IMG/VR virus record: IMGVR_UViG_3300042292_000345 | Coordinates: 1 to 64,000 of that record | Direction: 5' to 3' (one strand) | Origin: a virus | Length of the DNA stretch: 64,000 nucleotides | Part shown: positions 1 to 59,773 of the stretch, piece by piece | Layout of the letters: each line of letters begins with the position of its first letter | How positions within the stretch are numbered: the stretch's first letter is position 1 | Program-made: the position numbers and the translations under genes | Notes under the pieces: generated by a model | What the model saw: only the letters and a program-made list of their open reading frames with translations | Databases searched by the model: none | Told to the model about the DNA's origin: nothing

Positions 1-1
1 T

Positions 2-265
2 GTAGGTATAAATAGAATTAATACTTATGCAGGTACTTTCGGCACAGTGGATAGTCCAGCTATAAGTATCCCTGCAAGTATACCTAGTCTATCTATTAGT
101 AGACCTATTTATACTACTATAACAGATGCTTATGTAGGTATAAATAAAGTCAATACTTATGCAGGTACTTTCGGCACAGTGGATAGTCCAGCTATAAGTA
201 TCCCTGCAAGTATACCTAGCCTATCTATTAGTAGACCTATTTATACTACTATAACAGATGCTTAT
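2..265 (+). repeat. 132-bp in-frame tandem repeat, two copies
   Basis: Copies at 2-133 and 134-265 are in frame (44 codons each). I count four mismatches between them, three clustered near the 5' end of the unit and one at base 98 of the unit, so they are about 97% identical. A short degenerate third start (GCTGGTCTATC) follows at 266. Further copies may exist upstream of the window. Confidence 0.9.
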
Positions 266-2437: not shown

Positions 2438-3985
2438 ATGTATAAATCTGTTGCTAGTCCTAACGCATCTTATTTGCTTCATTCAAAGTTGTGGGCTAAA
2501 AATAGAGCTATGTGTGAGGGTGAAGCAGCAGTTAAGCGGCTTGATGAACAGGTTAATATAGATAATCTATTAATTCCTTTTTCACCTAGCATGTCTCTCG
2601 ATCAATATTTATTTTATAAAGCTGAAGCAGAACTTCCAGGAGTTACTTCAGAATTCGCTAAGATGCTAGTAGGTGGCTTACTAAGAAAACAGCCAGTACT
2701 TGAATTACCTGCTAGCGTTCCTGAAGAGGCTACTGAATGGCTCCTCAACAATTTTGGTAGAGATGATTCATCTTTAGTCAGCTTTATGGATGAAGTCTTA
2801 TGGGAGGAAATTCAAACTTCTAGAGCATGGATTATGGTAGATTACCCTTCTATATCTGAAGCTCAGTTTGAAAATCTATCACCTGAAGAACAAGCCAAGC
2901 TTAAACCATACCCTATCACGCATAAAGCAGAGTCTGTTATTAACTGGAAGACTGAAGTTACATGGGAAGGTAAAACTAAACTTACTATGGTAATTATTAG
3001 ATCTCTGGTAGAAAAAGTATCAGTTGATGATGAATTCCATCCTGTTCTGGTAGACACTGTATGGGTTCATGATCTTGCACCTAATTATAGAATACGTAAA
3101 TATGAATCTCAAATGCCTAGTAATGAGACACCAGACGTTCATAAAGATCGTATCAAGCCTGCCAAAGATGATGCGCCTAGATATACTTTAGTAGAAACTA
3201 TTGATTCTATTAAAGCATTTGGCATGCCTCTGGATAGTATTCCTGCATGGCCTCTTAATGGTTCTATACCTATTATGCCGCCTATGCTAACACCTATTGT
3301 AGATAAAGAAGTCTCTTTATACAATAAGATGAGTAGAAGAAATCATTTATTATATGGTGCAGCTACTTATACTCCTATTATTATGTCTGACATGACTGAT
3401 GAGGAATTTGAGAACATAGTAGATTCAGGATTAGGTTCTTGGATTAGGTTAAGACAGGGTGATACTGCAGATATCTTAAAGACACCTACAGAAGCTCTTG
3501 GTAATATGGATGTTACTATTAAAGCAACTATCGATGAGCTTGCCAGACTTGGAGTGCGGATGTTATCACCTGAGAATGAACAGTCAGGTGTTGCTTTAGA
3601 GATCCGTAACGCAGCTCAAACAGCTAAGCTAGGTACTCTTAATAATAAGATTAGCAGTACTATGAAAGCTGTATTTAGCTTTATGATATTCTGGCGATAT
3701 AATATACAAGTACCTCCTTGTGATATTCATTTCATTTTATCTGCTGATTTTGATCCTGTCCCATTAGGTGCTGACTGGTTACGTCTAGCTACTGAATGGT
3801 ATGAGAAAGGATTAATTCCAAGATCTATTTGGCTACAATTACTTAAATCAAATGACATGATTGATCCTTCGTACGATGATAAAGAAGGTCAATTAGAGAT
3901 TAATGCCGATCAGATGATTATTACACCTGTTCAGCAAAATGATCAATACCTTCAAGGTATGCAACAACAAGAACAAGGATTCTAA
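2438..3985 (+). CDS. portal protein (DUF4055-like)
   Basis: A 515-residue protein with features of the DUF4055 class of siphovirus portal proteins: an N-terminal VLLP-like region (VNIDNLLIPFSPSM), a helical YLFYKAEAELPGVTSEFAKMLVGGLLRKQP segment at about 65-90, a central DKEVSLYNKMSRRNHLLY block near 290-305, and a C-terminal helical stretch after RMLSPENEQSGVALEIRNAA. Portals form a dodecameric ring at the capsid vertex that carries DNA in and out and docks the terminase. It sits immediately upstream of the minor head gene, scaffold and major capsid, the usual order. The size is normal. The family assignment is from recognition of sequence style. Confidence 0.8.
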   Translation: MYKSVASPNASYLLHSKLWAKNRAMCEGEAAVKRLDEQVNIDNLLIPFSPSMSLDQYLFYKAEAELPGVTSEFAKMLVGGLLRKQPVLELPASVPEEATEWLLNNFGRDDSSLVSFMDEVLWEEIQTSRAWIMVDYPSISEAQFENLSPEEQAKLKPYPITHKAESVINWKTEVTWEGKTKLTMVIIRSLVEKVSVDDEFHPVLVDTVWVHDLAPNYRIRKYESQMPSNETPDVHKDRIKPAKDDAPRYTLVETIDSIKAFGMPLDSIPAWPLNGSIPIMPPMLTPIVDKEVSLYNKMSRRNHLLYGAATYTPIIMSDMTDEEFENIVDSGLGSWIRLRQGDTADILKTPTEALGNMDVTIKATIDELARLGVRMLSPENEQSGVALEIRNAAQTAKLGTLNNKISSTMKAVFSFMIFWRYNIQVPPCDIHFILSADFDPVPLGADWLRLATEWYEKGLIPRSIWLQLLKSNDMIDPSYDDKEGQLEINADQMIITPVQQNDQYLQGMQQQEQGF

Positions 3986-4215: not shown

Positions 4216-7200
4216 ATGAATTTAAATACAGAACTTTATGATAACCTCATTCATAGAGCAGCAATGCTAAGACTATTCGAAAGAAGAGTATCAGGCAAAG
4301 TAGATATAGTGCTAAATGATCATACAGATAGGTTGGACAAAATAATTCGTAACTCTGATCTTACTGTAGTAGGTCAAAGAAAGCTTAAAGAAAGGATTGA
4401 TATTGAGTCAACAGGCTCTTTTAGACAAGCATTTAATGTATCTAAAAGTAGTTTACTAGATCTGGTTGCAGATCAGCTTTCTTTTACCTATCAGAAAGTA
4501 GAAGCAAAAGTAGGAAAGATTTGGAGAACTGAAAGACCTGCTAAACGAGTATCAGAAGAAATTGTATTACAGAATCCTTTGTACAGTAATCAGACGTTAG
4601 CTCAAGGTTGGGCTGGAATATCTAAAAGTGAACGTATTAGGTTGGACTTAATTATACGTAAAGGTATTGCAGATGGCTTATCAATAGATGAAATAGCTGT
4701 ATTAGTACGGAAAGGACATCTACATGATATTACTAGAAACCAATCAAGAGCGCTGGTTACTACTGCTGCTACGTCTGTCGTTGCTCAAGCAGATCATCAG
4801 ATTTATAAAGCAAATGAAAAAGCTCTTCAAGGCTATCAGTATATTGCAGTATTAGATGCTAGAACAACTCCTTTATGTGCTCATCGAGATGGTCATGTGT
4901 ATCCTATTAGCGATACTGAGCATCTTCCTCCAGCTCATTGGAGATGTAGATCTACTACTGTTCCTGTCTTTAAGTCTTGGAGTGACATAGCCAGTCTAGA
5001 AAATATAGCTCAAGTCAGAAGAGAAAATATTAGTAATCTAACAGAAAAGCAGAAAGCTTACTATGATGGTATGACTCCTTTAAAAGAATCATATAACGAT
5101 TGGCTACTGCGACAACCTAAAGACATACAATTAGCTCATTTAGGTGACTACAATAAAGTAGAGTTGTTTAATAAGAATCAACTTACTGTTGATCAATTTA
5201 CAAATCCTGAAGGTAATACATTAGGTATAAGAGAATTACGTCAGCTAACTGATAGTACTTATGCGCTACCTAATGATACCCAGAAGTTTGCAAATGCTAA
5301 AGCAAAGTTAGATGCAATGCAATTATATGCATCAACTCCTGATAGTTTTATCAATGATAAGAAACTCACTCAGACTCTATTAGATTATTATCTATTGCAG
5401 AGTGGAGAGTTAGATGGTACTTTATCTCTTACAAATTATCGTGGAACTCTAATACATACTAAGAAAGCTACTAAAAATAGAGTGTTGAATACATTACCAA
5501 CAGAGGATCAAATGATATTTAATCCTATGACAGGTAGATATGAAGACTCTAGAATGTATCAGCCTAGTATTGGTGCATTAAGTAATAATCTTAGACTAGT
5601 AGAAGAATCTACAGATCTGAAAGATAAAGACAAACTATTCATTAATAGTTTTGAAAGATCACTCTCTGAAAAGATGAGTGTTAATGAGAGAGCTGTTGTT
5701 GTAGATAATCTACGTAATATATTCTCCAGATTTAGACGTAATGGAGAAGTATGGGGGAACTTTAAAGCTGTTAGTCAATCTCAGATTAAGTTTGATGTAA
5801 TGAATGTATCTGATACTATCGAAACACAGATTAGAAAAGATTCTGACCCGCTAAAAAAACTTCTTCAAGACAACTATATCGATCCAGTACTAGGTCCAGT
5901 GCAATTACAAAAACTCCACGATACCTTCCATGATAATATAAGATTCATGAATAAGTGGGAAGATAAGGTAGCACCTAAAATCGCTAGAGAGCTAAGAGGC
6001 TTCTTTGATCTTGCAATTCCCTTTAAGATTCGTGATAGGCTTACTGAAGTTAATATTCAAAAATTCTATCTGAAATTAGCAAAGAGACTTGCACTTGCTG
6101 ATACACCTGACAGAGATCAATTAGCTGTCACTATTGGCAGAGACCTCTATAATGCTGCTAATTTTAATGGTACTAGAAAAGATTGGTATAACGTTGGTTT
6201 AGAAATAATAAATGCTAATAATAGTATATTTAAAGTAGAGACATTTGGGGTTCAAAAGAGACGAATGAAATCTAGACTGTCAGGTCAATATTTTGGACCA
6301 TATTATGATACATTAGCATACAATATTCGCATAACAGATCCTAGAATTCAAGAGTATGCTCAAACAGTACGTAAGGTAGACCTTGGATTACGTGTTAGTG
6401 TAGTTAACGATGATAATAGACTTATATTCAAAGAAGGCTATAAGACATACTTTATGAAATCTAAATTTGGATTAGAAGATACTAGAATACCTATTACAAG
6501 TACTAGTAGTTTTTCTGATTTTCCAGAAGATTTTGTAGATGAGAATATGAAAGATGCACTCGAATGGGCATCAAAAGCTAGATATCGCATTGATGGCGAC
6601 TTCTACGATTTTACTCAGAAGTTATTATATTTTGTAGATGACAGAGGTAATGCTAAAAAGTATGATGCACTTAATGAATATAAACATTATATTAGTTCAC
6701 GTGGAGATGCTTATGAACGCTTTAAGGCGATGGAATGGCTACGTAAAAGCAATGACTCTTTTTCTAATCATCCTTTCATTGACCACAGGGCTCGTATTTA
6801 TGATAGGGGTCTTATTAGCCCTCAGTCTGGCGAATCCTTTAGACCTTACCTTAATACTGAAATAGAGAAACCATTAGGTGAGGATGGCTTTAAGAACTTC
6901 AAAGATCAGATAGGTGCCTTTATGGGTGGGCTAAATGACGTATTTGAAGGTAGATATAACTCACTATCCTTTACTGGTAGACAGAAGATTGCTGATAAAC
7001 TCTGGCCTGAGATGGTAGATATTGGTAATAAGATGCTAAGAGCAAAACCTGCTGATATTCGATTTATCTTAGAGTCTGAAATGGTCCAGTCAGTAGAAGG
7101 TGAGGAACTTGGTAAGTTTTTTAGATTTGCTATTGAAGCTGCTAAATTAGATAATCATATCAAATCTGGGGGTACACTTGACAAGTATATGACAGCACTT

Positions 7201-8940
7201 GCATTAGAGCAAGATGCATCATCATCGGGTGCTCAGATTATTGCCCTAACTACTAAAAATAAACAGCTAGCAGAACTCTCTAATGTAGTTCCTACTAATC
7301 AGAAAAGACGGCTATATGATGAGATTGCAGCATCTACTTATAATGATCCTAGATTCAAAGTAATGAATGAACGACTAGGATTATCTGAAAAAGATCTTAG
7401 AAAAGCTGCTAAAGCTCAGAACATGGTTACTTTCTATGGTGCTGGTGAACGTACTGGCATTCTTAATGTAGAAGGCAAATTAGCTAAGATTCTTGACAAA
7501 ACTGATAGTACGTTAGTAGTAAAAGCTTCTGATAGAGATAAAGTACTTAGTGAGATATCTGCTAGAGCTGCTAGGTATCAGAGATTTGATGAAGAAACTT
7601 ATAATGAATTAATGGTTCTCAGAGCTAATGTTAAAGATATCTTTAATAAAGGATTAGAACCAGGTGATGAAATCATGGAACAGCTTTATTTCTTAGAACC
7701 TAAAACAAAAGAATTAGTTGAAAAGATGACTGCTAGTTATGATATGGTAGTTACCCCAAAAGACTTTCAAGCTATTGCAAAAATTATGAGTGAGCATTTA
7801 GCTGAACAAGTACCTATTCTAAAAGACTTCACTAAGTATTTTGGTAGGCTAGCAGAGGATTTCTTAACTACAGCAAAACCTAGCGGTAGTGATTTAGATT
7901 GGAAGGTAATAGGTAAGATTCCTTTTCTGGGTACTAGACAAAAGACAATAGGTTCTGAACTTGTTGCTGGTAGTAGAGAAAGATCACCTACAATTGATTC
8001 ATTAGTTCTTGGCAATCTAGATAAGAAACTTAAAGCTAAATTTAATTCTAGACTAAGCGAGATATTAGGTATCAAGGCGGATGAGCCAATTACTGAAAAG
8101 ATTCTGAAAAGGTTTACTTGGTATAGACCTGATGGGATTCTATCTGATCTATTATATGGCGTACACACGCCTGATGACAGAACTATTGGCAAGAATGTAA
8201 TACGATTTAAATATACATTTATAAATGATAAATTTAGTATTACTCAACCGTTAAAGATCTATAGGGCAATAGATGTCAGTATACTATTTAATCCTAAGAT
8301 GCCTAAGAAGTGGACTAATGTTCCATGGGTTAACTTTGATGGTAAAACATTAGAACAAAACTTTACTCAATCATTTGAAGAAAGATTGAATTACAAAGAT
8401 AAAGATGGTAATTGGGTTACTAATATTTTACAAGTACCTCAAAAGACATCATCTACTGGATGGGAAGAATGGGCAAATGATCCAGGAAATATTAATGACA
8501 TTGCCGATGCAACTAAAGCTAGAACTGCCTATGCTGTTAATGGCAATCACTCTAATGATGCAACATTAGTTAAAAACTTTCATTTATGGGGCAGAGATAA
8601 TAACATTGCCACATCAACGATTCATGATGCTTTCTTTGCCAATGCTGCTGATATGCTTATAGCAAGAAAGGGTCTACGGGAGCTTTATGCAAATGCTCTC
8701 AATGCTGGTTCAGTAGTGAAAACGCTGGATGAGATGAAAGCAAGAGGTCTCCCTCAAGAGCTTTACGATGCTTATCTTAAAGAGGGCATTGAAAAGGGCA
8801 TTATCCCTGTTGCAGGGAAATCTGTCGTGGGTGGGAAAGTCCTGACAGAAAATGATATATTGAAAATAGATGACATATTAGCACCTATACCAGATCCTAG
8901 CAAATTCAGTAATGATGTTGGCTTCTATGGTGTAGGTTAA
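4216..8940 (+). CDS. MuF minor head protein fused to a T7/N4-type single-subunit RNA polymerase
   Basis: A 1574-residue two-part protein. Residues 1-~360 match the Mu gpF/SPP1 gp7 head morphogenesis family: VLD at 212, Cys221-x-HRDG, PPAHWRCRS with Cys244, then a YNDWLLRQP segment and an IRELRQLTD end. Residues ~370-1574 contain the landmarks of single-subunit RNA polymerases in order: FIDHRARIY (Asp856, Arg858, Arg860; T7 has DWRGR), SPQSG, PLGEDGF; motif A LEQDASSSGAQ (Asp1000); motif B Arg1062-x3-Lys1066-x7-Tyr1074-Gly, the same spacing as T7 R627/K631/Y639; NHSND (His1445); motif C STIHDAF (His1470, Asp1471). All catalytic residues are kept. The ~1200-residue size resembles the N4 mini-vRNAP. 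Because MuF proteins are head components near the portal, I infer that the polymerase is packaged and ejected with the DNA. The start at 4216 follows an aaggtag site. Confidence 0.85.
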   Translation: MNLNTELYDNLIHRAAMLRLFERRVSGKVDIVLNDHTDRLDKIIRNSDLTVVGQRKLKERIDIESTGSFRQAFNVSKSSLLDLVADQLSFTYQKVEAKVGKIWRTERPAKRVSEEIVLQNPLYSNQTLAQGWAGISKSERIRLDLIIRKGIADGLSIDEIAVLVRKGHLHDITRNQSRALVTTAATSVVAQADHQIYKANEKALQGYQYIAVLDARTTPLCAHRDGHVYPISDTEHLPPAHWRCRSTTVPVFKSWSDIASLENIAQVRRENISNLTEKQKAYYDGMTPLKESYNDWLLRQPKDIQLAHLGDYNKVELFNKNQLTVDQFTNPEGNTLGIRELRQLTDSTYALPNDTQKFANAKAKLDAMQLYASTPDSFINDKKLTQTLLDYYLLQSGELDGTLSLTNYRGTLIHTKKATKNRVLNTLPTEDQMIFNPMTGRYEDSRMYQPSIGALSNNLRLVEESTDLKDKDKLFINSFERSLSEKMSVNERAVVVDNLRNIFSRFRRNGEVWGNFKAVSQSQIKFDVMNVSDTIETQIRKDSDPLKKLLQDNYIDPVLGPVQLQKLHDTFHDNIRFMNKWEDKVAPKIARELRGFFDLAIPFKIRDRLTEVNIQKFYLKLAKRLALADTPDRDQLAVTIGRDLYNAANFNGTRKDWYNVGLEIINANNSIFKVETFGVQKRRMKSRLSGQYFGPYYDTLAYNIRITDPRIQEYAQTVRKVDLGLRVSVVNDDNRLIFKEGYKTYFMKSKFGLEDTRIPITSTSSFSDFPEDFVDENMKDALEWASKARYRIDGDFYDFTQKLLYFVDDRGNAKKYDALNEYKHYISSRGDAYERFKAMEWLRKSNDSFSNHPFIDHRARIYDRGLISPQSGESFRPYLNTEIEKPLGEDGFKNFKDQIGAFMGGLNDVFEGRYNSLSFTGRQKIADKLWPEMVDIGNKMLRAKPADIRFILESEMVQSVEGEELGKFFRFAIEAAKLDNHIKSGGTLDKYMTALALEQDASSSGAQIIALTTKNKQLAELSNVVPTNQKRRLYDEIAASTYNDPRFKVMNERLGLSEKDLRKAAKAQNMVTFYGAGERTGILNVEGKLAKILDKTDSTLVVKASDRDKVLSEISARAARYQRFDEETYNELMVLRANVKDIFNKGLEPGDEIMEQLYFLEPKTKELVEKMTASYDMVVTPKDFQAIAKIMSEHLAEQVPILKDFTKYFGRLAEDFLTTAKPSGSDLDWKVIGKIPFLGTRQKTIGSELVAGSRERSPTIDSLVLGNLDKKLKAKFNSRLSEILGIKADEPITEKILKRFTWYRPDGILSDLLYGVHTPDDRTIGKNVIRFKYTFINDKFSITQPLKIYRAIDVSILFNPKMPKKWTNVPWVNFDGKTLEQNFTQSFEERLNYKDKDGNWVTNILQVPQKTSSTGWEEWANDPGNINDIADATKARTAYAVNGNHSNDATLVKNFHLWGRDNNIATSTIHDAFFANAADMLIARKGLRELYANALNAGSVVKTLDEMKARGLPQELYDAYLKEGIEKGIIPVAGKSVVGGKVLTENDILKIDDILAPIPDPSKFSNDVGFYGVG

Positions 8941-8996: not shown

Positions 8997-9665
8997 ATGA
9001 GTACCGAAAATCCAAATCCAGATAATACTGATAACACTAATAATGTACCTCCTGCACCTGCGGGAACTACTAATGGTGTTAGCATGACTCCTGAACAATT
9101 GGAAAAGTTAATATCAGATAGACTTAATCCAATTAAAGAGAAGTTAGATAATGCATTTGTCGAGAGAGATGCAGCTAAGACCAAGTTAGCAGAATTAGAA
9201 AAAGAAAAGCAAGAACAGGAAATTAAACGTCTTCAAGAAGAGGGCAAACATAAAGAAGCTTATGAGATTCAGTTAGCTGAAGAAAGAGCTAAATTAGCTC
9301 GATTAGAAAAGCAAAACACTGAACTAGCACGTGATGCATCTTTAAGAACTCTGTTAGGTAAATTTACTTTCAGAAGTGATAGCGCATCTAACATGGCTTA
9401 TAACTCTATTATATCTGAATTAAGACAGAATGAGAAAGGTGAATGGGTTCATGCGTCTGGTACAACATTAGCAGACTATGTTAAAGTATTTTCTGAAAAT
9501 GAAGAAAATTCATTCTTGTTTAAACCTAAAGTATCTTCTGGTGGAGGTCTTGACGGAAACAATAATCCACCTCCTGTTGGCGAATATAAAAGCATCTACG
9601 AGATGAGTCAAGAGGAAGTATTAAAAAGAATCACTGAAGGCAAAGCGTTGCCTAAAAGGAAATAA
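8997..9665 (+). CDS. capsid scaffolding protein
   Basis: A 222-residue protein directly upstream of the major capsid gene, the canonical place for scaffold. The first 40 residues are Asn/Pro/Thr-rich and disordered. Residues ~40-115 are a long charged coiled coil (KTKLAELEKEKQEQEIKRLQ, then further heptads). A C-terminal domain follows, ending in a basic ITEGKALPKRK tail that could bind capsid protein. This layout (disordered start, coiled coil, basic tail) is typical of phage scaffolds, including the DUF4355 class. It should drive procapsid assembly and then leave or be degraded. No protease gene is visible nearby. The site aaaggaa precedes the ATG. Confidence 0.8.
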   Translation: MSTENPNPDNTDNTNNVPPAPAGTTNGVSMTPEQLEKLISDRLNPIKEKLDNAFVERDAAKTKLAELEKEKQEQEIKRLQEEGKHKEAYEIQLAEERAKLARLEKQNTELARDASLRTLLGKFTFRSDSASNMAYNSIISELRQNEKGEWVHASGTTLADYVKVFSENEENSFLFKPKVSSGGGLDGNNNPPPVGEYKSIYEMSQEEVLKRITEGKALPKRK

Positions 9666-9668
9666 CAA

Positions 9669-10889
9669 ATGACTGTAAAAACAAATCTAGCCGGTGCTAC
9701 TAACTTCGTATTACAAGAAGCAATCAGTGCTTACTCTGACGAAGCTTATACTACTGCTCGTAAATTATCAAGCACTGGCATCGTAGGAACTAACCCACAA
9801 ATTGACACTAGCACAGAAACCTTTATTGGTCAAATGCGTTGGTTCAAACCATTAAATCCAGTAGTTAACGTTGCATCACTAACAGATGCTGCTGACGGTA
9901 ACAAAACTAGCTATGCATCTGACTACTTGACATATATTAAAACTGTTCGTACTCACGGTGCTAACAAAGTTAATATGCAATCAGTAGTTACTCAACAAGA
10001 TGGCTTAGCTAAAATCGGTCGTGACTTTGGTGAAACTCGTGCTAAAGACGAACATGATGCTATCCTTGCAGTACTAAAAGGTGTTGCAGTATCTGAATTA
10101 TTGAATGGTGCAGCAGCTGGTAGTGGTGCAGCAGGTTGGGGTGGTCAAACATTTGATAGCGATCCTGAAGAAAAACGTTACGGTTTCTATGTAGACCTAG
10201 GTGCTAACAAACCAGTATTACCATCAGGCGGCTCATCAGGTACTAACTATGCTATTCAAGGTGCTGCTCGTGCAGAAGGCTTCTTAAATGCATTTGGTAT
10301 GGCATTCAAAGATTATGAACCAGCTTGGGCTTACTTAGTAATCTCACCTGAAACATTAGCATCTTTCCGTTCTGCTAACTTTGTAGATGAAACTACTGTA
10401 ACAGATGGTATGGTAGAATTCAATACTATTTTTAGTGGTAAATTCAGATTAGTTGTAACTCGTGCTAACCAATCATTAGCAACTGCTGACTTGACTAAAA
10501 TCAATACAGGTGCTGGTACAGTTGGTGGCGGTGCAGTTGCAGCTGACGTTGCAGGTACTAAAACATCATTTATTGTATTGCCAGGTGCATTAGCAATGGA
10601 AGGTTTGTCAGTTCCTGATGAAACTGAAATTTACCGTGATGCTAATAAATATAAAGGTGGTGGTACAACTGACATTTGGTATCGTTGGGGTTATGTATTA
10701 GCACCTGCAGGCTACAACTGGGCTGGTCCAGTAGATGCATTCCCATCTAACACTGATTACACTTCAGTAATGGATGGAAGTACATTGAAAACTCTTTCAG
10801 CTGCTACTATTGCAACTTCAAAAGGTGTTTGGGAACGTAAAGCTCATTCAGCACTTTCATTAGGTATCTTACCTGTATTCCACGCTTAA
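9669..10889 (+). CDS. major capsid protein
   Basis: A 406-residue protein at the expected position after the scaffold, spaced three bases from it. The sequence has the feel of HK97-fold capsid proteins that lack a cleaved N-terminal arm: it begins MTVKTNLAGATNFVLQEAIS, with a long helix-rich middle (RTHGANKVNMQSVVTQQDGL) and a C-terminal KGGGTTDIWYRWGYVLAPAGYN block. Codon use differs sharply from neighbours: arginine is almost always CGT rather than AGA, as expected for the most abundant virion protein. Together with position, this makes the assignment strong even without a database match. Confidence 0.88.
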   Translation: MTVKTNLAGATNFVLQEAISAYSDEAYTTARKLSSTGIVGTNPQIDTSTETFIGQMRWFKPLNPVVNVASLTDAADGNKTSYASDYLTYIKTVRTHGANKVNMQSVVTQQDGLAKIGRDFGETRAKDEHDAILAVLKGVAVSELLNGAAAGSGAAGWGGQTFDSDPEEKRYGFYVDLGANKPVLPSGGSSGTNYAIQGAARAEGFLNAFGMAFKDYEPAWAYLVISPETLASFRSANFVDETTVTDGMVEFNTIFSGKFRLVVTRANQSLATADLTKINTGAGTVGGGAVAADVAGTKTSFIVLPGALAMEGLSVPDETEIYRDANKYKGGGTTDIWYRWGYVLAPAGYNWAGPVDAFPSNTDYTSVMDGSTLKTLSAATIATSKGVWERKAHSALSLGILPVFHA

Positions 10890-14853: not shown

Positions 14854-14865
14854 TTGGAGACAAAT

Positions 14866-17800
14866 ATGTCAGGAATAGCTATAGCAGTAGAAGCTAAGGT
14901 AGACAAAGCGCAAAGAGACCTTCAACTATTAAATCATACAGTTTCAAATATATCTACTGAAGTTAAAAAGGCTACCTCTAGTTTCTCTTTGATGTCTAAG
15001 TCTATTGTAGGTTTAGGTGGTATTGCTTTAATTTTACCCACGATCAAAAGCATTGATGCTACTTTTACAAATATTGAAAACAAAATAAAAACCATAACAG
15101 GTGCAACTGAAAGATTTAATACCGCATTTTCTGGGGTTTCATCAATCGCAAGAGACACTCGTTCTACACTAGCAGATACTACTGATTCTTTCTTTAGGAT
15201 CTCATCAGCTATTTCAGAAACTAGTCTAGATATGGATAAGGTTCTGGTAGCGACAAGAGCAATACAATCAGGTGCTATTCTTGCTGGCGGTAATCTTGAT
15301 GGATATCGTGCAGCCGTTATGCAACTAGGGCAAGGACTAGGTAGTGGTGCTTTAAGAGGTGAGGAGTTCAACTCTGTTATCGAGCAAGCTTTACCTATTG
15401 CAAAAGCTATTGGAGATTCTTTAGGGGTGTCTGTAGGAACTTTAAGAAGAATGGCAAATGCAGGCAAGCTTACATCAGATCTTGTATTTAACGCACTAAT
15501 AATGCAAGCCGGTGCTTTACAAAAGAAAGTAAGCTCTATGGATATTACTATAGAGCAGAGTATGCAAAGTTTAAAAGAGACATTAAAATATGTATTTAAC
15601 TCTTTTGATAAAGCAGTAAATATGTCTGGCTTTCTTAGTAGAGGGATAGTAGCACTTTCAGGTAAGCTAAGTTTACTAGCAGATTCTGCATTTAATATGG
15701 GGACTGATATAAGCTCCGTATTAAATAGTTTATTTGCTTCAAAAGATCTTAAAAGAATTGCAGATATAGCAACAACTATGCTATACCCTTTCTATTTTGC
15801 TGCTAAGCAATTTGGAAAACAATTTATGTTATTTTTGAATGCTAGAGGTATAATCTCATTCATGAATAAAATATTTGTTGAGACTACATCAGCAGCAATG
15901 ATGAGTATAACAAAACTTGGAACAAAGCTATATACTCTTGGTGTTATTTTACGTGCAATAGACCAGCAAGGCTTTCTACAAGGGAAATTAGCCGTATTTG
16001 ATGCATTTGGATACGCTGTAAAATCTTTCTTTGTAATGTTTCATTTTTATGTACAACGTGTAGTAAATCCTATTAATCAAGATATTTATGCAATAGGCAA
16101 TTCTATAGATCAAACATTTAATGTTATACCTGGTAAGGTAATTAAATTATTTGCAAATTTCACAGCACATATTTCTCATTTTATACAAGGTTTTATCGGA
16201 TTATATGATACTTCTATAGGTCGTCTTTTTAAAAATCTAGCAGAAGCTTATGAGGATTTTGTAGCCGACTTTAATAATAGTGTATTTGGTTTTAGTCCCT
16301 TAAGTAAGAAACTTGAAAAATATAAAGAAATATTAGCAAGAGTTGTTCTTAAAAGTATCCCAGAAGTATTGATAAGAGCTGCAGGAGCTATCAAAGCTGC
16401 CCTTATAGGTTTTATTAAGCCTTTTAAATCTGTTGAAGAAAGAATTTCAGCAAGCAGTAGAGTACTTCCTAAAGTATCTTTAAGCTTTGAAGAAATGGCA
16501 ACAGGAGTTAATAAGGCTGGCAAAATATTAGTAACTGGTGCAGAGAATGTAAAAGACTTTTTTATGATGCTAGTATCAACTGATTTTAGCAAACTAAGTA
16601 GTTCTTTTAGCTTTGATGGATTAAAGAAAAATATTTCTAATTTTGTAAAGTATATTTCTAACACTAGCCTACTATCATCAGTTAAGTCTTTTGTAAAAGA
16701 TCTATTACCATCTGATATACTATCTAAAAGTGCTAGTGTATTCTCAAATACACTTCAAAAAATTATTGTAAAAATCAGAGACGTTCTTGGTTCTTTATTT
16801 TCTATGGATAAGATTAAAGGGCAATTGACAACATTTTTGCCAGTAATACAGAGCGGTCTGTCTTCTCTTTTATCTACTCTTACAGATGCTGCAAGTATTG
16901 TTTATAGTAAAGTCAGTAGCTTTATTGACTCGTTTAAACAGTTAGAAATGGTATCTGCAGTAACTGATAAAGTTGAAAAAGTATTTAATTTTATTAAAAA
17001 GAAACTAGAAGGCACATCTCTGGATGTTGATTTCAGTGCTATAAAAGATAAAGTAAAATCTTTATTTAAAGATAGCATTAGTAGTGATATTACATCATCT
17101 ATGGCATCATCATCTTTTAAATTTTCAGATTTTAAACATATTGCTGTAAAAGCACTAGATAGCATCGTAGACGGCTTCCATAATATTGTGGCTGTAAGTA
17201 AGAAACTTTTATTTACAAAACCAAAAGAAGCACTCGATTATATATTAGAAAAACTATCTATTGTAAAACAGAAAATAGGCGAATTTGCTACTAGTATAGG
17301 TATCCCTAGTATCGATCTTAGTGTAAATTTAGAACCTATTAAAAAAGCTATAGGCGTTGCTAAAGAATTTATTGGTAGTATGGTTGCCGATCTTAGTGAT
17401 GTTTTTGGCACTAATTTTACAAATCTTAATCTTGATACATCTAGTTTTTCTAGTTTTAAAGCAAGTATTCTAAAAGCCTTTGATGAAGTCTCATCAATAT
17501 TTAATAAAAATCTTGCAGTGCTATTTGCAAAACCAATGACATTCCATGTGTCTGCAATAGCACTTGGGGAGATGTTCCCTGAAAATAAAGTGACTGAATT
17601 TTTATCTAAACAGTTACGTGCAGTAGCGGTAAGAGGCTGGAAAGACTTTATTATTGCTTGGTCAAATACTGCAAATGCTGGAGACTTATCTGAAAGAGTT
17701 GGTGAATTTGCTAGTACAACGATTGTCAATGCAATAAAGAATTATACATACGCCCTACCACAATTGGCAGGCGCATTAATGAGCATTGGTTCGAGTATAT

Positions 17801-20800
17801 TTAGAGGCTTTGTGGAAGGTCTTCCAATTGTTGGAAAAGTTTCTGAAGTTGTATTTAATTTAGCTGAAATGCTTGGTGTAGCAGGTCCATTAGGAGTGAT
17901 AGGTGCCTTTTTATTTGGCAGTAGCATTCTTACTACTCTGGCTGAAATAGGTCTATTACCAGCAACCTTAACAAAAGTAGCAGGCGCAATGCATACTGTT
18001 AAGTCATTCTTTATGGGAAGCTATGGCACAAGAACAGCTACTGGTGCTTTTACTAGTGTTCTTGGCACTATGTCGCATGAGATGTTTAACTCTGCTAGAA
18101 GATCTTTCAGTATTGGAGCAGCGCTCTTAGGGGCAGATATGCTGGGAACCTTTGATACAATGTTTAAGGACTCTCCAATTGCCCATAGCGTAGCTAGGGG
18201 TCTTGCTGTAGGCTTTATGTTGTTTGGTCATGATGTACCTAAATTAATTGCTGAACATGTACTAAAGCCAATAGCAACAGGCCTTTTAATGGGCGGACCG
18301 GCGCCTTTTAGTAATTTTCTTGTTAACTATCTAAGAGGTGGAGACCAAGGCCCATTATCTGCAAGAGTTGCAAAAACAATATTTGAAAAAGTAGATCAAA
18401 TAAGAGATATGTTTGTAAGTCGGATGGAGGGTATTGTAACTGGTAAAGGAATATTTGAATCTCTAATCTATGGTAGAACAGGTGCTATTACTCAGCCACA
18501 ACAATCTTCTCGTATTTTTGTAAAATATGAAGCAATGATGCGAAGCCTACAAGGACATGCTGGCTCTTTTGCTGCTACTATAAGGGCACAAGTACCTGTG
18601 CTTGCTACACTGATGTCAAAATGGACAGCTTTCGATACTGCATTAGCAGCGTCTGGAGGATCTGGTGGTAGGCTCTTATATGCATTGTTTGGAAAAGGCG
18701 GATTGATTTTAAGAATTGCACCTACTATTCTATTAATCACAGGTTTACTAGCAGCATTCTCTACATTTGCAAGTGAAGCTGAACAAATCCCTGACTATAT
18801 AAAAGGAAAAGAAGGCTTTGCAGCTGTACCTAGAATGGAAGTTCCACAACCTGAAATAGTAGTAAATAAACCTACTATTGCTAGTCAAGTAAAAGAGTGG
18901 ATGTCAGCTGCAGGAGATGAATTCAAAGCGACTTTTCCAGCTTTTGCAAAAATAATGAAAGATCTTTCATTATTGCCTTATAAGATTTTTAATTTTACAA
19001 GTCTAAGATCTTTATTTGCAGAAATAGGTAACTTATTTACAGATATATATGATGCTTCTATACCTTATATAGTTGCTCTTGGATCTATTGTAGGTAAGGT
19101 ATTATTAGATCAGTTCAGTATGATTATGAAGCTGGTTCAAAGTTTTGGCTCACTTATAAATGCTTATTTTACAGGAATAGTAAATCTAGGACAACTTGTA
19201 GGCGATACTCTTGCAACGTATACCGATGTACTTGTTGCAGTAATAGGTGTAGGTCTGGTAGTCTTTGATTATTTTATACAGCGTTCTAAAAATGCAACAC
19301 TAGCATTATCGCAGTTTCTTAAAGTATTTGCTAAATCTAGATTTCTACCAATAGCGCTTGCTATTGGTGGTGTTGGTGTAGTATTTGAAAAATATTTTAT
19401 AGAAGGAGTAGATGTCGCAATTGATAGAACTACGGTTTTTGGACAGGTTCTTTCAGCCCTCTTAACTGTAGCTACACTTGTCTTTAAGGTATTTAAAATA
19501 TTAAAACCTATTCTTCTTGCCTTACCTTTTATTGAGCCTTTGCTTGCTAAATTAGGACCTCTAAGAGAGGGGTTTAGAAAATTAGGAGAGACTTTTAAAA
19601 CGAGTTTTACTGGTTTTAGATGGACAGATATTTTTACATCACCATTAGAGACAATTAAAAAGCTAGGTTCAACAGCTGTAGAAGGTCTTAAAGGCTTATA
19701 TACAACTATTACAACAGCTACAGTAAGTGCAGCAAGCAGTGCAGGCGCAAGAGCTGGAGGTGCGTTTAGCAGAGCAATAGCAGCTGCATTATCAACTAAT
19801 GGTTTCTTAATAGTAGCAGCGCTTACAGGGGTGCTTGTAGCTGCTGCCAAAGATATTGATGGTAGAAAATTCTCTGATATTTCTGGTATTTCTAGTTTTA
19901 TTAACTTCTTTTTCGATCTTGCTGCTGGTGCTGCCGTAATTGCAATAGGCTCTTTCTTATTGCTAGGTAAGTCTACTTGGGATTTTAGAAATAAGGTATT
20001 AGCTGCTACAGCTGCTCTAAGAGCACAGCAAGGTGCTATGTTTGTAAATGAAGCAACACTAGCTGCCCATGCTGCAATGATGTGGAAAACTTATGAGGCA
20101 CCACTACTGGCAATGCCTGCTATGATTGCATCCAGAATGACAAGTTTGTTTGTATTTGCCGGTTCAATAGCTGCAGGTGCTTTTGCAGGTGCTTTTGTTA
20201 CTAATGCATTAATGCACCAGTCCGAGTATACTGAAATTGGCATAATGATAGGCACTTATCTTGGTTTTATGATAGGCAGATCGCTTATAAAGTATCTCGG
20301 TACTATAATGGTAGAAGCTTTTACTGCAGCAATGATAGGAAGTATAGCAGCTTTAGCAACTGCTGTGGGCTATGTAGGAATGGGATTAGCAGGTTGGTTT
20401 AACTGGTCGGATGACTTCTTAACTCAACTATCTTCAATCTATGATAAGCTAAAAGATATTGCAGGAATTGTATCAGAAAAACCTGATACAAAAACAGGCC
20501 TTTCAAAAAGAGCTTTAGATTTCGCTAAATATAAAGGTATTGAGATAGCTTATAATATTGGAAATATTAAGGAATCTATATTATCTGAAAATACTAAGAA
20601 ATCTTATAAAGAAAGTATTTCAAAGTTAAATGAAAGTCTATTGAAAGGGAGTGAAAATGAGCTGACAGGTGTTGAAGTAGATCTTCACGAAATTCAAAAT
20701 AATGTAAAAGCTTCTTCTAGACAGGTTTCAAGAGCTACTAACGAAAGTATGATTAGTATTTCAAAAGACTATGATAAGTTTGCTACACTATTAACTAGAA

Positions 20801-23800
20801 TAGGCAAAATAAACCCTGCAGATGAGCTTTTTAAACTTAGTAAACCAGAAAAAGTAAACTATGATGATTATTTGAATGGAATATTAATGGGTTCTGAAAA
20901 TAATAATGTGCTCAAAGATGGGGGCATTAAAGGTCGGATCCAAAAAGCAATGGAAACTTCAATAGAAAAAATGTCGACTGGTGGGGATTTTAGCCCACAA
21001 TTGACAGCTAAGATAAATCAACTATATTCTTCTCTATTTGATACGCTTAATACATACTATGGTGCCATATATGAGAACAATAGTGATAAGTCCAAGACCA
21101 CAGCCTCAGCGGCTGAGGGCTATATTGTTAATATTCTTTCAGATATTGAAAGATTAAATGTATGGAAAGGTGCAGTAGACGAAGCAGCTTCTGCAGCTAA
21201 TAAATATACAACTAGTATAGCCAATATTTCAACAAATTTAAGTAAGTATAAGATAGACTTTAAGACTGAAGATTTAAATGTTGATACAAGTCTTACTGAT
21301 TACTTAGATAATACTTATAATTATCTACTAGAGATTGATAATCAATTAAGTAAAGCCTATGATAAGAATAATAGAATACGTCTAACTCAGATAAAAGACT
21401 CTGCTATTGAAGAAGCTAAAGCACGTGTAGACGCAGCTAAGAAAGTTCAAAAAGATTATCAATATCAATTATCTACATTCACAGATGTAGGTATTGAAAT
21501 CCCTGATGTTGCTAAATTTATGAGTCCTGAAAAAGCTCAAGGTATTGTAGAAAACTTTAAACAATTAAAGCAGTTACAGGAAGATATCCAAAAACCTGCT
21601 GTAGAACCTGTAATGCCTGAGATTAATCAACTCTGGTCTATGCGTAGTAAAGAAGAAACTGCAAGAGCATTTGAGGCATATGTTAGCCAATTACAAGACT
21701 ATAATAGAATTGTATCAGCTAAAATAATGGGTGAAGCTGGTTTAGATAACTTCCGTAATGCAATATCTAGACAAATATTTGAAGGTATTAAGGGCGATAA
21801 AGCAGGTTATGCTAAGTATATCTATGGTATTGTAGAATCTATTGGCTCTCCTGTAATTGATATGGTAGATCAATTTGGTTTAGACACCATTGATGGTATA
21901 GCTAATCAAATAGCAGAGCTATCAATAAAAGCAGAGATGTTTAAAAGATCTGGCGACTACTCAAAAGAAGCACCTTTGAGACAGCAGATAGAAGATTTAA
22001 AGATGTCTATAAAGACACTTGATATTCAACCTTTACAATCTGTTATTGATTTGTTAGATCAAGGTATTACAGGTAGAGATCTTCTTTCAATTTCTGATAA
22101 TGATCTTGCTAAGCTTGCAGCACTTGGAAAAGCTATTGCAAAATATAATAAAGATCTTTCAGAAGCTAGACGTACTAATTCACCTGTAGATACTAAGAGA
22201 ATTCAAGGTCAGATTCAAGATACTAAGAAACAAGCTAAACAAATAGCTGATGTTTATCGCAGCGCTTTGCCTAGTTCATTCTCAAATATTTATGGTAGAA
22301 TGGGACTAGAAGGAAAAGCAAGCAGTGTCACAGCTGGTCTATTCATGAAACTTGCTAATGCTTCTAAGAATATTGAAAATTTAGAATTAGATAGAGCCCT
22401 TAAAAGTGATACTTTATCTGATTGGAAAGATTTTACTGATCAAATTGAAAAAGCTAATATTGAACTTGAACGTACTAAGCTACTTGGTCCTTTTGTAGGA
22501 GAAGCCTTAACTTCTGCATTTAGTGATGTCGGAGTTAGTGACTTTAATGAGATGGTGGCTTATGGCGCTGGGCAGCTTACTGAATTACTTGGTCTTGCTA
22601 GAAAGAAACAAAGTATTAATTTAGATATTAAAGCAGGGGCTAGTGAAAGTGAAATTCAGAACTATATCAATAGTGTTAGACAACTTGCAGAAATTGCAGA
22701 TGAAGTTGCTAAGAAACGTATTAACACTATTACAACTGGTACTGATATTACTCAAGCATTTTCAGATGCAGGTGCAAGTACTAATAAAGCTGCTTTAGCA
22801 AACTATCAGTATGGTGCTTCTCTATTAGCACTTAGCAAAAAGTCTGCATTACTGAAATTAGATCAAGCTAAACCATTAACACTTCAAGCAGCTAAAGAAA
22901 ATCTTAAAGCACTAGCAGATATTGACAGACAGTTAGCAATTTATAAGAAAATTGTCATGAACACAAAAGAGAACTTTGATAGCTTTAAATCTATCTTTGA
23001 TTTCTCTGTTGATGATACTTTATATGCTAGACTATCTAATGGTATTCTTGGATTGATGGGTAATGTAGCTGCTAGAATTGATTTATTGATGAAGAATGCA
23101 TCTGATAAAGATGGTCTTTCAGCATCTACTAGGTCTCTATATGAAGCTCTTGCATTAGTTAAGAGAGATGCTAAAACATACTCTTCTTTACTAACTAGTG
23201 TGTACGAAGCTCAGCAATCTAGGTTTGATAGTAATAAGACTAAGTATGATAAGATTTCTACTGCATTTCCTAATTTAGGAATGGATAAGAATCTTTATGG
23301 TACTTTAGATAGAGCTGTCAGATCTGGATTTGAGAAAAGTGCTAACTTTAGTGATTTGTTTAGTAAGATATCAGATCTAGGCGCATTGCCAGTCAAACTA
23401 GCAGATGAGCTAGATAGATTAGGTAATCTGTATGCTAGTGGTAAAAATGTAGACATCGATATGATTGCTGCTGCCGTAACTCAATATGGTGAAGGAAATC
23501 TAAAAGCAAGACTTGAAGCTATCATGTCAAGTACTAAAGATCCTTTTACTAACTTGAAGACATCTACAGATGATCTAAAAGGTGCTATTGAATTACTTAG
23601 TGAAAATGTTGCTGCAAATACAGCTACACTTAGAGGTGAAGCACCTAAAGCAAAAACTAGCATGAATATGTCTAGTAATGTAGAGAGTCTGTTAGCTGCT
23701 TCTACTGCCAAGTATGGTGTCCCATTAGATCTTGCTAGAATTGTTACTCATATCGAATCAAGAGGTAAGAATAATCTTACTTCTGAAACGGGTAATAAAG

Positions 23801-43807: not shown

Positions 43808-44308
43808 ATGATTATAAGAAAGCCTAAAGTAAATGAAATTCATATGTATTATGAAATAGCCTTGCAGTGTTCATTAGAGAGCCGTATAAAAGAATTTGAT
43901 ATTAATAAGGACTACGTAATGAATAATATTAATGCAATGATGAGAGGAGAATATTTTTATGTAGTAGAAAATGAAGGAGTACCAGTAGGGTGGATGGCAG
44001 CATCTAAAAGAAGTGCTTCACTTTATTGTGATAGATTAGTACTAGCAGTAGATAGTTATCAATGTAATTTAAAAGGTAGAAAAGCTGTTACAGCTATGCT
44101 AGATATTCATGAGCACTTATATGATTATGCAAATACTATCAATGTAGAAATGGTTCTGACAGGTTCTGTTCTGAATTCAAAAAAGACTTATAATAAAATA
44201 TTAAAGCACGAGGGCTGGGCTGATTATGAATTTATGTTATTGAAAATGACAGATAAATATCAAAATAATAAAATACGTAGAAGGGTTCTGACTATAGCCG
44301 AAAAATAA
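43808..44308 (+). CDS. GNAT-family N-acetyltransferase-like protein
   Basis: A 166-residue protein. The opening MIIRKPKVNEIHMYYEIA is the usual first strand and helix of GNAT enzymes. YFYVVENEGVPVGWMAAS gives the central strands, and CNLKGRKAVTAML sits where the acetyl-CoA pyrophosphate loop (Q/RxxGxG/A) is expected. The later SVLNSKKTYNKILKHEGW matches the final helix-strand. Substrate unknown; phage GNAT proteins can acetylate host targets or tail proteins. The start is unusual: the ATG lies two bases after a terminator T-run with no Shine-Dalgarno. A start at 43844 would remove the GNAT N-terminus. Confidence 0.65.
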   Translation: MIIRKPKVNEIHMYYEIALQCSLESRIKEFDINKDYVMNNINAMMRGEYFYVVENEGVPVGWMAASKRSASLYCDRLVLAVDSYQCNLKGRKAVTAMLDIHEHLYDYANTINVEMVLTGSVLNSKKTYNKILKHEGWADYEFMLLKMTDKYQNNKIRRRVLTIAEK

Positions 44309-44322
44309 AGAAAGCGAGGTCA

Positions 44323-44484
44323 ATGCAAAAACGTCGCCTGTGGCACGCGAGTTCGGGGCATGGCAACCGTATCGCCCGCGAAAATTCGGGGAGCGTACCC
44401 CCGCTAGCCGTCGCAGAAACGGGTGGCGTGTGGCAACTACTGCAAAACCGCAGGAAGGTTAACCCGTCAGGTCTCCCAGTATAA
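44323..44484 (+). CDS. GC-rich orphan mini-gene (53 aa, basic)
   Basis: An intact frame with a good site (agcgaggtca, then ATG) encoding a basic 53-residue protein starting MQKRRLWHASSGHGNRIARE and ending NRRKVNPSGLPV. By my count 96 of its 162 bases are G or C (59%), while neighbouring genes are roughly one-third GC. Its codons (CGC, CGT, CTG, GCC, CCC, GGG) are unlike those of the phage. The first codons align without gaps to a segment at 63144-63167, where the start codon is ATA. The DNA also folds well (CGGGG at 44387 pairs with CCCCG at 44399). It looks like a recently acquired element. It could instead be a structured RNA whose open frame is incidental. Confidence 0.5.
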   Translation: MQKRRLWHASSGHGNRIARENSGSVPPLAVAETGGVWQLLQNRRKVNPSGLPV

Positions 44485-44492
44485 GGAAAATT

Positions 44493-44750
44493 ATGTTAAT
44501 CAATGAATTAAAACTAGCTAATAAATCTGAAAGATGTTCTTTAGTAATATCTTTATTAGATAAGAACAATACCCCTTGGAGATCCTCTAACAGAGGAATC
44601 CATATCACAGTAGAACGTGAACATTATAAATTAGATATATGGCCTACTACTCTCAAATTTAGGATAACAGAATATCCGTTAGGTGAAGGAAATACTTTCA
44701 GTGGTGCTGAAGAATTCTTAGAAAATCTGGAAAAGTATTTGCGCAAATAA
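44493..44750 (+). CDS. small hypothetical protein
   Basis: An 85-residue protein beginning MLINELKLANKSERCSLVIS, with an aaggaaaatt site. It has alternating strands (GIHITVEREHYKLDIWPT) and a C-terminal helix (GAEEFLENLEKYLRK). The fold pattern of strand, strand, helix is common in small phage early proteins, but no family is recognised. Its last codons overlap the leader element that begins at 44741, and the terminal Arg-Lys codons lie within the shared GCGCAAA. Confidence 0.65.
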   Translation: MLINELKLANKSERCSLVISLLDKNNTPWRSSNRGIHITVEREHYKLDIWPTTLKFRITEYPLGEGNTFSGAEEFLENLEKYLRK

Positions 44751-44783
44751 TGGTATCTTATATGAATACCATAAGGTATATCA
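44741..44783 (+). promoter_or_regulatory. repeated leader element, copy A
   Basis: GCGCAAA followed by a 27-nt sequence (44753-44779) that recurs exactly at 45889-45915. It contains GGTAT, ATACC and GGTAT in order, so two exclusive hairpins are possible: GGTAT(44752)/ATACC(44766) and ATACC(44766)/GGTAT(44775) with an ATAA loop. No U-tract follows. It lies 22-25 bases upstream of the next ATG. It could be a phage polymerase promoter, an operator or an RNA switch. Confidence 0.6.
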
Positions 44784-45873: not shown

Positions 45874-45878
45874 AACAC

Positions 45879-45918
45879 GCAAAAACAAGTATCTTATATG
45901 AATACCATAAGGTATCTC
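45879..45918 (+). promoter_or_regulatory. repeated leader element, copy B
   Basis: GCAAAAA followed by the same 27-nt sequence as copy A, at 45889-45915. The ATACC-ATAA-GGTAT hairpin is present; the first GGTAT is shortened because an A replaces G before GTAT. A CTCAATAACTATAATTAAC spacer separates it from ttggag and the ATG at 45951. Confidence 0.6.
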
Positions 45919-46433: not shown

Positions 46434-46489
46434 CCAACCTATTAGAGGCCCTTAGGCTCCTAATAGGTTGGTATTTAATTTTTTTTTTT
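46434..46489 (+). terminator. strong rho-independent terminator
   Basis: CCAACCTATTAG (46434-46445) pairs perfectly with CTAATAGGTTGG (46460-46471), an internal GCC/GGC pair set shortens the loop, and a run of about 12 T follows at 46478-46489. Confidence 0.92.
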
Positions 46490-47449: not shown

Positions 47450-47488
47450 GACCTCCCTTCGGGGAGGTCTCCTTATTTTTTTTTTTAG
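47450..47488 (+). terminator. terminator with UUCG tetraloop before RNA polymerase region
   Basis: GACCTCCC (47450-47457), TTCG loop, GGGAGGTC (47462-47469), then TCCTTA and a long T-run. The perfect 8-bp stem with a UUCG loop is very stable. The ATG of the next small gene follows the T-run within about ten bases. Confidence 0.92.
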
Positions 47489-59707: not shown

Positions 59708-59714
59708 AACGCGC

Positions 59715-59758
59715 AAAAGGGGGTATCTTATATGAAACAATAAAAGATATCCCTTTTT
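59715..59758 (+). terminator. hairpin terminator containing leader element, copy C
   Basis: After GCGCAAAA the sequence GTATCTTATATGAA (59723-59736) repeats the first 14 bases of the 27-nt element of copies A and B. Here the downstream part differs: AAGATATCCC (59744-59753) pairs back with GGGGTATCTT (59720-59729), allowing about 15 bp with A-T ends, then TTTTT. So the shared core is part of a terminator-like stem in this copy. Confidence 0.65.
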
Positions 59759-59773
59759 AATTTGGAGTATAAC

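Follow-up and report, generated by a model that had tools for sequence, protein, structure and literature searches.

The MuF-polymerase locus

The 64,000-nucleotide stretch of viral DNA analysed here (referred to as the window) covers positions 1 to 64,000 of the 77,325-bp IMG/VR record IMGVR_UViG_3300042292_000345, and it contains an uninterrupted, ATG-started frame of 1574 codons between a portal gene and a scaffold gene. The product of this frame has an N-terminal MuF head domain and a C-terminal T7-type RNA polymerase. The features of the window that are relevant to this gene are as follows.

2438-3985, + strand: portal protein (PHROG 145, E=1e-51)
4216-8940, + strand: MuF-RNAP fusion gene, 1574 aa
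4216-5373, + strand: MuF head-morphogenesis domain, residues 1-386, with C221, H241 and C244
5374-6765, + strand: residues 387-850, conserved N-terminal part of the polymerase module, inferred to be a likely promoter-binding domain
6766-8937, + strand: T7-type polymerase catalytic core, residues 851-1574
6781-6795, + strand: DxRxR motif, D856-R858-R860 (T7 D421-R423-R425 region)
7207-7236, + strand: motif A, EQDASSSGAQ, with D1000
7399-7440, + strand: motif B, RKAAKAQNMVTFYG, with K1066 and Y1074 (R1062 not conserved)
8623-8628, + strand: motif C, H1470-D1471
8997-9665, + strand: head scaffold protein (PHROG 206, E=2.7e-12)
9669-10889, + strand: major head protein (PHROG 247, E=4.9e-18)
14854-26736, + strand: tape measure protein, 3960 aa, TTG start, with an internal transglycosylase domain at 2942-3058 (PHROG 17300, 3e-55; PHROG 12507, 7e-22)
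44741-44765, + strand: class I promoter 1, proposed +1 at 44764
44764-44782, + strand: 5' mRNA hairpin of class I site 1 (-5.0 kcal/mol, z -2.2)
45877-45901, + strand: class I promoter 2, proposed +1 at 45900
45900-45918, + strand: 5' mRNA hairpin of class I site 2 (-5.0 kcal/mol, z -2.8)
47648-49714, + strand: second, free-standing T7-type RNA polymerase (RNAP2), 688 aa (PHROG 414, E=1.9e-118)
59711-59735, + strand: class I promoter 3, proposed +1 at 59734, where the promoter strand itself can pair with downstream AAGATATCCC instead

A preliminary description of this gene, made from the sequence alone, had proposed a MuF protein fused to a complete single-subunit RNA polymerase, and every residue that it named is in place (C221-A-H-R-D-G226, H241-W-R-C244, D856-x-R858-x-R860, D1000, R1062/K1066/Y1074 and H1470-D1471). 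Profile searches confirm both halves. Pfam Phage_Mu_F (PF04233) matches residues 147-248 with E=1.5e-11 (45.4 bits against a curated cut-off of 29.6) and RNA_pol (PF00940) matches residues 978-1098 with E=1.1e-9, also above the curated cut-off, while PHROG 241 (head morphogenesis) covers residues 1-386 with E=2e-54 and PHROG 414 (RNA polymerase) covers residues 852-1084 with E=1e-22. Only these two Pfam families score above cut-off, and no C-terminal toxin domain of the kind carried by MuF polymorphic toxins was detected; residues 387-850 have no Pfam hit. The tape-measure, distal-tail, tail-terminator and J-like genes of the tail module indicate a siphovirus. A 132-bp (44-codon) tandem repeat lies at both ends of the record (window 1-264 and record positions 76869-77325), so the genome was probably circular or permuted and opened inside a repeat.

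Distribution and conservation of the fusion

The fusion is neither a chance event nor an assembly artefact. The same family was found in 76 loci and 530 relatives, that is, in more than 600 viral contigs, and it occurs as one full-length fused ORF in 76 sequences, of which 62 are distinct. A protein search of 50,697 phage records found full-length relatives only in EBPR siphovirus 1 (56% identity, with the frame interrupted by an HNH gene) and in the Ruegeria phages DSS3_PM1 and DSS3_VP1 (31%), where they are annotated as head or minor head proteins. The gene order portal-fusion-scaffold-major head protein is likewise present in DSS3_VP1 and DSS3_PM1. A scan of genome contigs gave only one gammaproteobacterial MAG, with a 74,179-bp contig of the same length as one of the viral records (G004), and this is probably binned phage DNA.

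In the 62 distinct full-length proteins, residues C221, G226, H241, C244, D856, R858, R860, D1000, K1066, Y1074, G1075, H1445, H1470 and D1471 are conserved without exception, down to 30% identity. Both halves are thus under strong constraint and stay joined. The preliminary description had also listed Arg1062, the equivalent of T7 R627, among the motif B residues; it is present in the window protein but is not a family feature, being Arg in 7 and Ala in 52 of the 62 proteins, while the neighbouring K1063 is conserved in most members. The core around motifs A and B is the most conserved part of the protein, with 80-85% conservation at residues 1001-1100 compared to 42-70% in MuF, and residues 387-850 show 58-71% per-block conservation in 42 relatives.

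Interestingly, both polymerase genes are repeatedly interrupted by insertions near active-site motifs (an HNH gene in EBPR siphovirus 1), like introns or inteins in other phage polymerases; with contigs and viral records numbered under the prefixes L and G, these are L001:23208-24126, L047, L055, L061 and L065, and G003, G011, G028, G033, G037 and G041. In-frame insertions of 150-170 aa also occur at a single position of the fusion protein, residue 982, in L052, L057, L066, L071 and L072. An intein explanation for the latter was not supported, since no Pfam intein domain and no splice-junction signature were seen; the insertion in L071 has a DGNHR stretch reminiscent of ParB/sulfiredoxin-like domains.

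The polymerase module

A single-sequence phmmer search of the PDB gave no significant hit with the window protein, but a family profile found T7 RNAP sequences at E=1.2e-6, with motif C aligned, and no other sequence below E=0.1. The DxRxR motif also aligned with T7. A first AlphaFold model built with 28 similar sequences had a pLDDT of 71; a second, built with 42 diverse sequences for residues 380-1574, reached a pLDDT of 79.5 and a pTM of 0.75. In this model residues 387-850 are folded, motif A lies between a strand and a following helix, the motif B Lys and Tyr lie on or at the end of a long helix, and the motif C His-Asp sits at a beta-hairpin turn. The top Foldseek matches are T7 RNAP or mitochondrial single-subunit RNAPs such as POLRMT (E 1.8e-17 to 2.7e-14, probability 1.00, TM 0.41-0.57 on target length).

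The relationship to other phage polymerases was examined by profile comparison. Against the family of the second phage polymerase hhalign gave E=1.8e-5, whereas against the Schitoviridae virion RNAPs it gave a probability of 0.4 and E=0.13, which is not significant; structural matches to the latter were also weaker than to T7-type phage RNAPs (5.5e-11). Outside its own family, the module alone matches free-standing T7-type phage RNAPs best (E=2e-7). The module is therefore a T7-type enzyme by motif and predicted fold, not a displaced N4 virion RNAP, and the comparison with N4 made in the preliminary description holds for the logic of the system but not for descent.

A second polymerase and two promoter classes

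The free-standing RNAP2 accompanies the fusion in 14 of 17 relatives tested, with the three exceptions being fragments of 40-47 kb, and it is present in 25 of 25 further contigs.

A search for repeats in intergenic DNA uncovered two promoter-like classes. Class I in the window group is GCGsAAAA-n4-GTATCTTATAT followed by GA, with 23 sites in 11 genomes; the window has three (44741, 45877 and 59711), where 0.02 are expected by chance. An exact pattern scan of IMG/VR returned 86 stretches, and of the 25 contigs tested, mostly the largest, 22 encode the fusion, the three without being fragments of 41-54 kb. Of 76 unique sites, 73 are intergenic, with a median distance of 45 nt to a start codon. 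The first 30 nt fold better than shuffles (z -1.59, compared to +0.07 at +41 to +70; p=8e-10), and in 37 of the 76 sites the first base pair of the hairpin is the G that follows TATAT, although many sites come from related contigs and are not independent. The element is read here as a T7-like promoter with +1 at that G and a 5' mRNA hairpin. An N4-style hairpin promoter, suggested by the perfect stem that follows the motif, was rejected because the stem differs between copies and starts at the inferred +1. A second type of class I site, in which the promoter strand itself pairs with downstream AAGATAYCCC to give a longer hairpin, occurs at window 59711-59760 and at L181:3443 (G003). The DSS3 group has the corresponding element TGAGAAAA-n5-GCATCTATAAT followed by GA, with hairpins such as GATAC-AATA-GTATC.

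Class II is CCCGTTAAnTTAACCC, found directly behind the fusion gene (before scaffold and major head protein) and elsewhere, though the class II motif was not found in the window's own genome. In DSS3_VP1 class II is TAATAGGGTGCGTTAAA followed by GAGGGGGA, with 12-13 sites, and looks like a canonical T7 promoter with 17 nt before a G start.

Class I sites lie 1.3-6.6 kb upstream of RNAP2 in eight genomes. In DSS3_VP1, class I is found at 35.8, 36.3 and 67.8 kb, while class II stands directly before the portal/MuF-RNAP operon (19.2-19.3 kb) and has a 16.5-kb gap (29.4-45.9 kb) over the early block that holds RNAP2 (42.4 kb). In the window, sigma-70-like matches in the early region are at the chance level (16 compared to 16.6 expected), and none on the + strand coincides with class I. 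Strong terminator-like hairpins followed by long T runs (46435-46475 and 47450-47469) lie between class I promoters and RNAP2, and the latter hairpin means that RNAP2 would need read-through. Just before the first class I promoter is a GC-rich noncoding stretch of about 190 nt (44305-44495) in a genome of 36% GC, with a 42-nt similarity in three other contigs (L231, L241 and L256); an Rfam scan of the window gave nothing, and the fold of this stretch is no better than shuffles (z -0.6).

A model for early transcription

The simplest way to account for these findings is that the gene encodes a virion-carried early RNA polymerase, and this reading is considered probable, although in the absence of virion proteomics, transcript or enzyme data the packaging, the ejection through the tail and the catalytic activity are inferred. 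In this model, the MuF domain builds the protein into the new head next to the portal, and the T7-type polymerase behind it travels with the particle and enters the next cell with the DNA. There it would read class I promoters in front of the early genes, among them the gene for RNAP2, which would then read class II promoters that drive middle and late genes including the portal/MuF-RNAP operon, so that the fused polymerase is made only when heads are made. RNAP2 cannot start its own synthesis, so the early promoters need a pre-existing enzyme, and the virion enzyme is the economical answer. The assignment of promoters to polymerases is by elimination, since both polymerases occur in the same genomes and co-occurrence cannot assign them, and a protein of roughly 175 kDa would have to leave through a long narrow tail, probably unfolded. 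The preliminary description had arrived at a virion-packaged polymerase as a guess from context; this reading now has independent support from the second polymerase, the early promoter class and the position of the fusion gene in a class II (late) operon.

Other explanations are less likely. Class I promoters might be read by the host RNA polymerase, perhaps with an alternative sigma factor or an early phage factor, while the fusion protein acts as a late enzyme in the producing cell, for instance on late genes or in packaging, without being injected. T7-like phages in general start with host RNAP, the fusion gene is in the late module, and class I contains an A/T-rich core. However, class I is a rigid element of about 25 nt with a start at G and no -35/-10 spacing or coincident sigma-70-like + strand match, and it differs between the two phage groups as a whole element (GTATCTTATATGA compared to GCATCTATAATGA), as expected of a diverging phage enzyme; fusion to a head protein also has no evident use for a purely cytoplasmic late enzyme when RNAP2 already exists. 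It is similarly doubtful that the promoter assignment is swapped or shared, with the fusion protein reading class II and class I being read by RNAP2 or by both. Co-occurrence does not discriminate here, but RNAP2 lies behind class I and would have to start its own synthesis, and the T7-like appearance of class II in DSS3_VP1 fits the closely T7-like RNAP2.

The fusion could also be only an expression arrangement, with the primary product cleaved so that MuF stays in the head and the freed polymerase works in the cytoplasm of the producing cell. Head proteins are often processed, and the reading frame of EBPR siphovirus 1 is split by an HNH gene, but this split and similar ones look like introns in that the coding parts resume in order, the fusion is kept in all 62 full-length relatives, and the polymerase module was not found as a separate gene in the phage records; this possibility is judged unlikely. 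Least likely is that the polymerase half is an inactive relic used as a structural plug: the variable motif B Arg could be taken in its favor, but all metal-binding and core residues are invariant in the 62 proteins and the motif A and B region is the most conserved part of the protein.

Relationship to known systems

The N4 virion RNA polymerase (gp50, Schitoviridae) provides one functional precedent, with a single-subunit RNAP fold, a long fusion protein, a gene in the structural module, a second phage RNAP for middle genes and a small early promoter set (PMC4496689). N4 is a podovirus, and its enzyme is fused to its own N- and C-terminal domains, almost always with a metallopeptidase domain (PMC5512222), rather than to MuF; it uses ssDNA hairpin promoters with the hairpin upstream of +1, whereas here the hairpin starts at the inferred +1 and is not sequence-conserved. 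A second precedent is the Thermus siphovirus P23-45, in which gp96 is a polymerase fused to a structural protein, a free second polymerase is present, and there are two promoter motifs, with the virion enzyme reading pre-early genes that include the second polymerase (PMC10770324). The P23-45 enzymes are two-barrel RNAPs related to cellular RNAP and the carrier is the tail tape measure, while here both polymerases are T7-type and the carrier is the portal-side MuF protein. The T7-type RNAPs of Autographivirales share motifs A, B and C and the predicted fold, but are made in the host after early transcription by host RNAP and are not fused to head proteins.

MuF/SPP1 gp7 proteins and MuF polymorphic toxins likewise have an N-terminal MuF domain next to the portal with a C-terminal enzymatic cargo, the known cargo being toxins, RNases, phosphoesterases and RelA/SpoT domains (PMC5576092, PMC5512222); the function proposed here would be phage gene expression, not toxicity. 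Iyer et al. 2017 state that N4-like virion RNAPs occur only in N4-like phages, and the MuF fusions in the parts of that work consulted carry PBECR, 2H and RelA/SpoT domains and no polymerase (PMC5512222). The MuF toxin paper contains no mention of a polymerase (PMC5576092). The statement in the preliminary description that no MuF-RNAP fusion has been described agrees with the open-access literature that could be searched, although the sequences themselves were already deposited. The concept of a structural-protein-fused virion RNAP is known, while this pairing of carrier and enzyme, its promoters and its spread appear not to have been described.

Conclusions

Virion polymerases are known from a few lineages (N4-like, crAss-like, phiKZ-like and P23-45), and the findings here add a large environmental family, with at least 600 contigs plus the cultured DSS3_VP1 and DSS3_PM1, in which the inferred carrier is MuF, so far known for toxin cargo. 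Public annotations such as "minor head protein" and "head morphogenesis" hide the enzyme. The family gives a concrete two-polymerase, two-promoter programme, offers two candidate T7-type promoter/polymerase pairs as tools, and reopens the question of how a protein of roughly 175 kDa passes a siphovirus tail. DSS3_VP1 has deoxyuridine DNA (PMC12697855), and the phage's own early polymerase could be needed there for promoter recognition. More broadly, it is reasonably likely, though not demonstrated, that MuF is a general cargo carrier, which in a globally distributed phage group loads a complete T7-type polymerase into a siphovirus head and delivers it through a long tail, so that early transcription does not need host RNAP. 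This would be an origin of virion polymerases separate from N4 and P23-45, with its own dedicated early promoter.
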